Below, in pieces: positions 3,624-28,315 of a stretch of DNA of 64,000 nt. The DNA comes from Fimbriimonadaceae bacterium. GTDB lineage: Bacteria > Armatimonadota > Fimbriimonadia > Fimbriimonadales > Fimbriimonadaceae. The notes below the pieces were generated by a model, which was not told the DNA's origin, did no database searches, and saw nothing but the letters and a program-made list of their open reading frames with translations. Both the position numbers and the translations under genes were made by a program. Position 1 is the first letter of the stretch, and the number at the start of each line of letters is the position of its first letter. The stretch lies in contig JAIBBE010000220.1 in NCBI GenBank assembly GCA_019694835.1, forward strand, positions 1 through 64,000, read 5' to 3'.

Positions 3624-4301
3624 TTACGGAATCGTGACGACGGTGACGACATTCGAGTATTCGCCGACTGGGGCGTTCTTGGCGTAGCCTTGAACCCGGT
3701 AGTGTCGCTCTTCTGGCTTCTGGTCCTCAAGGGGCGGTCCGTCGTCGATGAACGTCGCGCTGTCCAAAACCCCAATCCGCTCCCAGTTGACTCCGTCTCG
3801 GCTGCGCATGAGCAACACGACCGCATAGCCGCCTTTCTTCACCCGAAGTGCGATCCGCGAGCCGGTGAGGGCGGCTGCCGCTACGCTGGGTGTCGAGAGC
3901 TGAGTCGGCGTGGCGATAATGCCCATATCGACCCCCATCTGCCGGGTGAAAGCCGGGTTGGCCTTGATCTCGGCGACCAGCCGACGAGTCCGCGCCTCGA
4001 TGTTGCCAAGCGTGCCCACGGGCAAAACGATCGCTGCCGGCGGTGTCGGCGCGGGCGGGGTCGGAGTGTTCAGCAAGCCCTCCATCATCTGGTCCTTGAA
4101 GGCCAGCACCTCATTTCGGTAGTTCGTTGCCGCCTCAAACGCGGCGAGGAACAGCGCCACGTTCTGGGCATCGACCTGCGCCTGCGCCACAACGGGGGCC
4201 GGGATCCCGAGCACTCCCGCATAACTGGCCAGCGAAGCCGCGAACTGGGCATGCCATTGGACCCGCTTACTCTGCCTTCTCGGATAGAAGTTGGCGCGCA
4301 T
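3624..4301 (-). CDS. Unknown 225-aa protein with fibronectin-like C-terminus, preceded by a 21-bp repeat array
   Basis: 225 aa, no signal peptide, basic start (MRANFYPRRQSKR). Residues about 15-75 look helical and alanine-rich; a proline-rich linker (TPTPPAPTPPAA) follows; residues about 90-125 are again helical; the last 80 residues are beta-rich and resemble a fibronectin type III fold (DGVNWERIGVLDSATF, then RHYRVQGY and EYSNVVTVVTIP). The start codon is only 11 bp from an array of eleven 21-bp repeats (4313-4543), so the array forms the 5' leader of this gene. No good ribosome binding site is visible. From memory, similar-sized proteins with this helical-Pro-Fn3 layout occur in Verrucomicrobia and Planctomycetes next to similar repeats, but I cannot verify this here. 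Function unknown. Confidence 0.75.
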   Translation of the reverse strand: MRANFYPRRQSKRVQWHAQFAASLASYAGVLGIPAPVVAQAQVDAQNVALFLAAFEAATNYRNEVLAFKDQMMEGLLNTPTPPAPTPPAAIVLPVGTLGNIEARTRRLVAEIKANPAFTRQMGVDMGIIATPTQLSTPSVAAAALTGSRIALRVKKGGYAVVLLMRSRDGVNWERIGVLDSATFIDDGPPLEDQKPEERHYRVQGYAKNAPVGEYSNVVTVVTIP

Positions 4302-4312
4302 ATTCTAGAGAC

Positions 4313-4543
4313 GACGCTGATAGCGGGGCTGTTTCCGACAACAGCGGAGCATGCCCCTCTTATAAGAGATTAGCTTCCCTTATTACCGGCCTGTAACCCG
4401 ACATTACTGGAGAATGCTCCGGTAACACCGGCATCACATCCGATAATATCGGAGCTTATTCCGCTACTACAGGGGCTAACTCCAATAGTGTCGGGGCATG
4501 CCCCGGTGATAGCGGGGCACGCCCCGATAGCATCGGATATACG
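4313..4543. repeat. Array of eleven 21-bp palindromic tandem repeats
   Basis: Eleven consecutive units of exactly 21 bp (starts 4313, 4334, 4355, 4376, 4397, 4418, 4439, 4460, 4481, 4502, 4523). The consensus on the plus strand is YCCGNTANTANCGGRGC followed by four variable bases. Each unit is a small hairpin centred on its position 8; the unit at 4439 is a perfect palindrome (TCCGATA-A-TATCGGA). The variable positions 5 and 11 are complementary in five units (A/T, G/C or C/G), a pattern like covariation. The unit junctions form a second palindrome, for example GGGGCATGCCCC across 4493-4504. Many units carry stop codons in several frames, so the array is not coding. Units differ from each other far more than in recent microsatellites. 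The remaining leader 4544-4686 toward speE holds one imperfect hairpin. Confidence 0.95.
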
Positions 4544-4586
4544 CGCGGTTCGCTCCCGCTACCCCCTGGAAGCCCAGGGCAAGCCG

Positions 4587-4634
4587 AAGGGGAGCCAAGC
4601 CAATCTCGTCAAGCGAGCCTTGGGGGCTGCCCTT
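4587..4634 (+). other. Imperfect hairpin in the speE leader
   Basis: AAGGGGAGCC pairs imperfectly with GGCTGCCCTT, with an inner CTCG/CGAG stem and a TCAA loop. It ends 52 bp before the speE start. It could be a terminator for transcription coming from the repeat array or a leader structure. No ligand-binding riboswitch motif is recognised. Confidence 0.3.
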
Positions 4635-15526: not shown

Positions 15527-15626
15527 CCTCTCCCCCAACCCCTCTCCTCCGCCACCTCATCTTCCGATCGCCCTATTCCTCGGGCGCAGGAGAGGGGAGC
15601 CCGGGACCCCGGGACCCCGGGACCCC
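15527..15626. repeat. CCCCCTCTCC-family element followed by an 8-bp triplet repeat
   Basis: CCCCTCTCCTCCGC (15538 onward) pairs with GCGCAGGAGAGGGG about 50 bp later, the same pyrimidine/purine arms seen at 5624 and 58283. Directly after it GGGACCCC is repeated three times (15603-15626). The stretch 15404-15688 contains no other recognisable feature before the permease start. Confidence 0.7.
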
Positions 15627-15688
15627 GTACCGCCCGTATCCACCGACCCTCGCCAACGAATGCCAGGCTGATTGCGTTGAGTAATGAG

Positions 15689-18289: not shown

Positions 18290-18310
18290 TCGGCTGAGAG
18301 GGTACCGCGT

Positions 18311-18360
18311 GGGTAGTGGGTAGTGGGTAGTGGGTAGTGGGTAGTGGGTAGTGGGTAGTG
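18311..18360. repeat. GGGTAGT tandem repeat, seven copies
   Basis: Seven uninterrupted copies of GGGTAGT 22 bp upstream of the glycosyltransferase start. The regular runs of three G on the plus strand could form G-quadruplexes, and such repeats change copy number by slippage. A related but degenerate GGGTAGC tract is at 29988-30028. Confidence 0.95.
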
Positions 18361-18422
18361 GGGAGTTGTGCGTAGCCGGTTGGGTCGTGCGGCCAAAATC
18401 AGACCCCTGATTCATACAGAAA

Positions 18423-27592: not shown

Positions 27593-28315
27593 CTACAGCC
27601 CTTCTGCCCATGACACGACCTTCGCCGCGATTTGTGCGCGCGTCTCCCGGTCGGACCGTCCGAACGCCTTTGGCGCGTGAAGCGAGTGGTCAGCACCGTC
27701 GAACCAGATCAGCTCGAAATGGGGCAAGTCCTTGGTGGCCGAGACCAGGATATCGGGGGTGCAGAAAGGGTCACGGGTGCCTTCGAAACAGAGCGTTGGG
27801 ACCTGGATTCGAGGCAGGTGTTCGACGCGAAGCTTCTCGGGCTTGTCGGGCGGGTGGAGCGGGTATGAAAGAAGGACGAGCCCGTAGATCCCCCTCCCCG
27901 GCCCTCCCCCGCAAGCGGGAGAGGGGGAACCAGTCAAGCTCCCTCCCCCGCAAGCGGGAAAGGGGGAACCAGTCAAGCTCCCTCTCCCGCTTGCGCGGGA
28001 GGGCTGGGGAGGGGGATCGGCCGCGAGCATCGATGCGACCCGGCCACCCATCGAATGGCCTCCGATCAGGAGCTTCTCTGGAGACAATTCCCGTTGGATA
28101 CTCTCGACCACTGCCTGATACTCGGAAATCAGCTTCGGCATGGGCGATGGGATGCTCTTACCGGCGTCGCGATAGGCGAAATTGAACCGAACCACGCCGA
28201 GACCGACTTCCACGAATGCTTGAGCCAATGCGGCGATGTGCTCGGAGTTCATGTTTCCGCCTGCACCGTGGGCGAGAATGAGCCAGATGTCGCGAGTCCC
28301 GGGCTGGATGATCAT
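27593..28315 (-). CDS. Alpha/beta hydrolase (TEX30/KANL3-like) with an in-frame repeat insertion
   Basis: 240 aa. Serine hydrolase fold: oxyanion region LILAHGAGGNMNSEH, nucleophile in GGHSMGGRVASML (about residues 86-98), acid in FEGTRDPFC and histidine in DGADHSLHAPK. The strand LVLLSYPLHPPDKPEKLR is characteristic of the TEX30/KANL3 group of small hydrolases. Between ASMLAADP and GIYGLVLLSYP, where the group normally has a short connection, about 40 residues rich in Gly, Ser and Pro are encoded by palindromic repeat DNA (27889-28016), including two 13-residue repeats starting GSLTGSP. The insertion stays in frame and lies next to the nucleophile elbow on the following loop. Start overlaps the stop of the preceding gene (ATGA). 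Confidence 0.8.
   Translation of the reverse strand: MIIQPGTRDIWLILAHGAGGNMNSEHIAALAQAFVEVGLGVVRFNFAYRDAGKSIPSPMPKLISEYQAVVESIQRELSPEKLLIGGHSMGGRVASMLAADPPPQPSRASGRGSLTGSPFPACGGGSLTGSPSPACGGGPGRGIYGLVLLSYPLHPPDKPEKLRVEHLPRIQVPTLCFEGTRDPFCTPDILVSATKDLPHFELIWFDGADHSLHAPKAFGRSDRETRAQIAAKVVSWAEGL
27889..28016. repeat. Palindromic element with two 39-bp units inside a hydrolase gene
   Basis: Two adjacent 39-bp units (27902-27940 and 27941-27979, one difference) each contain CCCTCCCCCGC/GCGGGAGAGGG arms; a third, partly inverted copy runs to about 28016. It belongs to the CCCCCTCTCC family seen at 5624 and 58283. Since 39 is a multiple of three, the hydrolase frame stays open. Confidence 0.85.

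Follow-up and report, generated by a model that had tools for sequence, protein, structure and literature searches.

The window analyzed here is a 64,000-nucleotide stretch of a Fimbriimonadaceae contig (GenBank assembly GCA_019694835.1, contig JAIBBE010000220.1, positions 1 to 64,000). It carries a gene for a 225-aa protein that is preceded by a tandem array of 21-bp units, with the following features (window coordinates).

3624..4301, minus strand: 225-aa gene of an array-associated family (open reading frame [ORF] list and protein search)
3627..3908, minus strand: C-terminal Fn3-like domain, residues 132 to 225 (model and search)
3924..4277, minus strand: N-terminal helical domain, residues 9 to 126 (AlphaFold2 models)
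4302..4312, minus strand: 11-bp gap from array to start codon
4313..4543, no strand assigned: dyad-symmetric tandem array upstream of the 225-aa gene, eleven units of 21 bp (lag identity)

A solute-binding protein gene lies 3' of the 225-aa gene on the same (minus) strand, and a divergent spermidine synthase gene lies on the other side of the array. The eleven gap-free units reported by the first-pass annotation are present, with a lag-21 identity of 101/210 (0.48) versus 0.32 for the second-best lag among lags 15 to 31, and the array ends 11 bp from the ATG at position 4301, as had been described. When the 450 bp upstream of the gene were scanned for their best 105-bp stretch, identity was 0.57 at lag 21 and 0.60 at lag 42 (lag 20, 0.35; lag 22, 0.41); detection at lag 42 delimited a segment from 4307 to 4597. 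TRF, run on the window, did not list the 21-bp array, presumably because the copies are too diverged. The hexamer TAGAAT (4302 to 4307, minus strand) abuts the ATG and could be a -10 element, although its spacing would be unusual. Elsewhere, the window contains short tandem repeats unrelated to 21-bp arrays (GTGGGTA, 8.3 copies, 18309 to 18366; GGGACCCC, 4.1 copies, 15595 to 15627) and 2.3 copies of a 39-bp unit that includes CCCTCCCCCGCAAGCGGG (27902 to 27990; lag-39 signal over 27824 to 28068).

Regarding the protein, structure models and searches bore out the helical N terminus and Fn3-like C terminus that had been proposed. The AlphaFold2 models (pLDDT 92.8 each) place N-terminal helices at residues 10 to 31, 35 to 74, 98/101 to 114, and 120 to 126, and the C-terminal domain has an Fn3 fold by both model and search. 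No match up to an E value of 0.1 was found in Pfam, NCBIfam, PHROG, or PADLOC; the Pfam fn3 model, which reached this value in 3 of 26 family members, did not reach it for the window protein. The helical domain, folded alone, had no significant Foldseek match (best E value, 2.1). A search with the 225-aa protein returned 16 proteins, itself included, and its nearest named relatives came from a Fimbriimonadaceae metagenome-assembled genome (MAG; phylum Armatimonadota). A profile of 84 other members matched the window protein at 1.1e-26, placing it among the full-length members of the family.

The family is large. A search with six members matched 1,010 proteins; among the 120 of these that were listed, the named sources were Armatimonadetes, Planctomycetes, and Pyrinomonadaceae MAGs and one labeled Aurantimonas, and the annotation was "hypothetical protein" or absent. 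Pyrinomonadaceae belong to the Acidobacteriota, and the family may resemble proteins of Bacteroidota and spirochaetes as well. A profile of 26 diverse members had matches at E values of 1e-6 or below in 93 of 291 Armatimonadota genomes, the weakest of them partial and perhaps other Fn3 proteins, with only ten candidates scored in most genomes. Some Armatimonadota genomes carry ten or so copies (e.g., ten listed places in genome G034).

We then asked how often family members have an adjacent array. Eighty regions were fetched from the listed places of the family, selected by match strength and flank and not by array; they provided 85 full-length members (84 with 450 bp of upstream sequence), some of which had already been seen with arrays before selection. 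The array score was the identity at a given lag in a 105-bp stretch within 450 bp upstream (threshold, 0.5), and 547 other ORFs of at least 200 aa in the same regions served as controls. The threshold was reached at lag 21 by 45 of 84 members and 6 of 547 control ORFs (Fisher test, 1e-38) and at lag 42 by 47 and 6, respectively, while every other lag from 12 to 45 reached it in at most 2 of the 84 members. The best period was 21 or 42 in 68/84 members, versus 90/547 control ORFs. Lags 20 and 22 were slightly raised, so the arrays do contain an occasional 1-bp insertion or deletion. When 450 bp on both sides of the gene were considered, the array was upstream in 51 of 80 cases and downstream in 2. 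Both protein types were represented (218 to 232 aa, 14/18; 200 to 217 aa, 39/65). We delimited 71 arrays among the 85 members, window included, with a median length of 238 bp that varied among loci and a median gap of 62 bp from array end to start codon.

These counts support the earlier view that the 21-bp period is linked to the gene and is not a random microsatellite, and the suspicion that a protein-repeat module occurs more widely was borne out. The association is incomplete: lag 21 or 42 reached at least 0.5 in 53 of the 84 homologs and at least 0.46 in 61, but 11 fell below 0.40, as did three phage members. Arrays away from the gene are fewer than those beside it, but some exist. Judged by the refuting conditions set at first pass, the balance therefore lies largely on the side of the module. 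Segments with a lag-21 identity of at least 0.55 in 1.37 Mb of fetched sequence comprised 40 just upstream of members, 2 overlapping members, and 16 elsewhere; the last group consisted of three N runs, four segments in the repeat-rich locus L108, one apparently coding segment, and eight array-like segments without a recognized member (L036:14917-15230, L037:6452-6725, L038:10773-10971, L061:844-1165, L065:7794-8070, L075:5853-6096, L084:6003-6265, and L097:11620-11992). Across 1.2 Mb of genome G040, ten arrays were found (six upstream of members, three inside long ORFs, and one orphan), and three of its nine members had no strong array. We conclude that the 225-aa gene and its upstream array almost certainly form one small genetic module.

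The module also occurs in phages. Five IMG/VR contigs (L187, which is the same contig as L114, and L188 to L191) carry a member with an upstream array (lag-21 identity, 0.55 to 0.63 in all five), and proteins checked from four of the phage contigs included capsid-protease, helicase, portal, terminase, and tape-measure proteins. The module follows a capsid gene in L187 and L188 and a helicase gene in L189 and L190. Between these two pairs, homology around the module covers only the array and the gene up to its stop codon, with other homologous stretches elsewhere. Array and gene thus sit as one unit at two different places in the phage contigs. In L191, the gene has 72 to 75% DNA identity and the array units differ (similarity, 0.38, versus 0.53 to 0.58 among the other four). 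A second family member of these phages had no array in the three contigs checked (L114:6001-6660, just before the tape-measure gene; L189:9111-9767; and L191:8271-8927).

The sequence of the array unit turns over fast while the 21-bp (or alternating 42-bp) period stays fixed. Among 2,481 pairs of arrays whose proteins were less than 0.9 identical, mean unit-profile similarity was 0.31 to 0.35 in every identity bin (i.e., near background), with single pairs reaching 0.42; four pairs above 0.9 protein identity had a mean of 0.48. L111 and L095, for example, encode proteins that are 85% identical downstream of unrelated arrays, and homology begins 53 bp upstream of the start codon used; in ten related pairs, the alignment covering the gene starts at most 53 bp upstream. 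Orthologous arrays of sister species can be aligned, but by eye they have diverged faster than the sequences on either side. A single shared recognition sequence is not supported, since units differ between loci.

A row of binding sites may nevertheless be renewed at each locus. In the main rival reading, the array is a series of sequence-specific dyad sites for one DNA-binding protein, either the encoded protein or a host regulator, with its specificity renewed per locus. Many units do resemble pairs of operator half-sites (CCGATA-TATCGG in the window, TTGTAC-GTACAA in L100, and ACCATC-GATGGT in L096), the dyad axes lie at the unit centre and the junction, same-face spacing is typical of cooperative operators, and units show some likeness in a few pairs of moderate relatedness (0.37 to 0.42 at 54 to 72% protein identity). 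Against this, mean unit similarity stays near background (0.32 to 0.35) in each protein identity bin from 40 to 90%, domain searches gave no convincing DNA-binding domain in any of 26 members, and no Pfam family occurred in more than 4 of the 130 neighboring proteins scanned (of 162). We regard private operators of this kind as rather unlikely. The same neighbors included restriction-modification proteins (N6_N4_Mtase, 3; EcoRI methylase, 2; and Mrr_N, Mrr_cat, HSDR_N, and Vsr, 1 each), which perhaps mark variable regions.

The window array is symmetric as a whole (z = 4.9 against column permutation within units; none of 60 permutations as good). Dyad symmetry reached a P value of 0.05 or below in 25 of 64 arrays, the window's included, where about 3 were expected, and was not significant in the other 39. 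For the window, complementarity of unit positions 5 and 11 in five of the eleven units had been noted; the count holds (three A/T, one G/C, and one C/G), but at a one-in-four chance its P value of 0.11 is not significant alone. By covariation excess, the symmetric axis of the window array ranked only second of 21 axes. Among the 35 arrays with a clear axis, the excess was 7.7 on the axis versus 0.07 off it, and the symmetric axis ranked first in only 10 (20 of 71 overall), in a comparison that is not a clean test because the units of one array are related by descent.

Symmetric units could also act at the RNA level, either as hairpins transcribed in tandem to which the protein binds, much as in a type III toxin-antitoxin system, or as a structured leader. 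The array does lie directly upstream of a gene for a protein of about 220 aa, and RNA of either strand of the window array folds well (sense, z = -6.0; antisense, z = -4.4). However, stem mismatches read in the gene sense in 32 clear-axis arrays comprised 173 G-T versus 223 A-C, a deviation in the wrong direction for sense RNA (P = 0.014, with cells that are not independent). The sense strand folded better in only 23 of 64 arrays, with no difference in fold energy between strands; permuting unit order changed folding little, and permuting columns within units weakened both strands alike. Given the lack of strand bias and the equal effect of column permutation on both strands, the symmetry seems to belong to the duplex. 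In a third of members, moreover, a promoter-like site lies where the array ends on the gene side or still closer to the gene, and this position, like the modeled protein of helices plus Fn3, argues against an RNA role. The covariation reading was rejected because the symmetric axis came first in few arrays, units are kin by descent, and strand bias was lacking; the RNA hairpin leader suggested at first pass is not supported, and an RNA array in general appears improbable.

As 21 bp equal seven codons, a translated heptad-repeat peptide was also considered. A reading frame does run open through some arrays (e.g., L005 and L022), and stop codons in six frames are fewer than base composition predicts (866 versus 1,316). 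Yet in 23 of 71 arrays none of the six frames stays open over the full length, and translated units share no peptide between loci, so this explanation is largely refuted and we give it almost no credence.

Helical phase left a signal of its own. The 10.5-bp harmonic was the strongest component of AT content in 18 of 64 arrays, versus about 6 expected. In a wedge model, period 21 gave random tandem arrays their greatest curvature out of 13 periods compared, and mean curvature was 0.10 for the real arrays, 0.055 after column permutation, and 0.036 after base shuffling. Against a stricter null that keeps three-column blocks (mean, 0.078), the real arrays were only slightly more curved: medians were 0.079 and 0.076, and 34 of 61 arrays lay above their block-permuted mean (Wilcoxon P = 0.03). 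A one-base shift of the period lowered curvature in 44 to 48 of the 61 arrays. The phase of the bend relative to the -35 box was not significant (n = 17; P of about 0.13). The modeled values are compatible with coherent curvature of the arrays.

Such signals bear on the possibility that slippage or insertion in steps of 21 bp near the gene has left the arrays behind as minisatellites without a function. Quick turnover of unit sequence, variable array length, and the arrays without a recognized gene would all be expected of a by-product. Still, the period is kept without the sequence at many loci, arrays lie upstream and rarely downstream, and the dyad and 10.5-bp AT signals exceed their nulls; we therefore consider a by-product to have little probability.

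Between array and gene, many members have a sigma-28-like site, CCTAAAGA-N15/16-CCGATAR. In a matrix built from 21 seed sites, 29 of 84 members had a site of at least 14 bits, versus 5 of 581 controls; among the 63 non-seed members, 9 reached 14 bits and 15 reached 12 bits (controls, 5 and 11 of 581). The site is found in 27 of 65 short-type members and 2 of 18 long-type (218 to 232 aa) members. The window gene has no such site in its 420 upstream bp (best, 1.2 bits). In 13 of the 24 members with both array and site, the -35 box started beyond the detected end of the array, and in the other 11 it started within the final 50 bp, a stretch in which detection overshoots (median, 21 bp past). To our knowledge, known sigma-28 promoters do not include a 21-bp array on their upstream side. 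The member sites are similar to the E. coli sigma-28 (FliA) consensus, which PMC2859248 gives as TAAAGTTT-n11-GCCGATAA; relative to that version, the spacer is one base longer in 17 of the 21 seeds. FliA/WhiG-family matches occurred in all 24 member-bearing genomes tested (22 above the cutoff), and flagellin occurred in 22 of 24. In the relatives G001 C18, G034 C1, G040 C2, G035 C6, G039 C6, G041 C80, and G045 C12, no more than about 3 kb separates a spermidine synthase gene from a gene for a FliA/WhiG-type sigma factor. The best of the 581 controls was a sigma-28-like site (CCTAAAGTTTCTTCGATTTTTGCCGACAA) before a prepilin-like gene (FTLIELLVVIAIIAILAA) in L083.

We infer, with about an even chance of being right, that the array is a duplex-DNA element upstream of the promoter that acts through helical phase, by phased sites or coherent bends. 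Because 21 bp make two helical turns, each unit would show the same face or bend the same way, and the array could offer a bound protein a phased platform or form a segment with coherent curvature. What matters for its effect would be helical phase and symmetry, with sequence counting for little. The array might in this way set the expression of the gene or switch it, with expression in one branch starting from the sigma-28-like promoter. The Fn3 protein itself would be a weak candidate for the array reader because the median net charge of the family is -1 (window protein, +5). More tentatively, and with somewhat less than an even chance, the gene family may carry its own satellite DNA or provoke it wherever a copy arrives, with selection on the helical period and dyad symmetry of that DNA and not on its sequence; the DNA would be a sequence-agnostic, phase-reading element in bacteria and phages that controls or mobilizes the gene.

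The module recalls several known systems. Iteron arrays are direct repeats of about two helical turns, with partial dyads, beside a Rep gene on plasmids, and Rep is a winged-helix protein. The present arrays likewise have repeats of about two helical turns that adjoin a gene and form partial dyads. They differ in that an iteron sequence is shared with its Rep, whereas here the units are private and the protein has an Fn3 domain; one member used as a query (L106) had no relative in 72,556 plasmid records, nor in the phage record collection searched. The window protein has no Pfam match up to an E value of 0.1. In type III toxin-antitoxin systems, the ToxI repeats upstream of toxN have a longer unit and act as RNA, and the toxin is an endoribonuclease. 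A tandem array directly upstream of a small gene, with a repeat that varies by locus, is common to both, but the window protein has no PADLOC match up to an E value of 0.1 and is modeled as helices plus Fn3. A CRISPR array was rejected since units abut without spacers in the window and in the other arrays printed.

Phage morons are defined by their own promoter and terminator. As with morons and gene cassettes, array and gene turn up together in more than one position among the phage genes, but a tandem array is not part of the moron definition and most copies here lie in genome contigs. Borg elements carry rapidly evolving tandem repeats of independent origins; the arrays share this fast, independent evolution, but Borg repeats are perfect and vary in unit length, and their description mentions no link to a single gene family (PMC9879509). 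Our search of the open literature outside preprints, on the text available, found no earlier description of a 21-bp array plus Fn3 gene module. A repeat length fixed at two helical turns, with a sequence largely free to change, suggests a control or mobile element of a kind not yet described, one that would act by spacing and not by sequence. Cis-regulatory DNA is normally recognized through sequence conservation. In this large family, array spacing persists, as does dyad symmetry in a good share of cases, whereas the sequence is exchanged from one relative to the next. If this reading is correct, the family offers a natural case of DNA shape or phase as a selected trait, together with a handle on about a thousand unannotated proteins and their phage copies.
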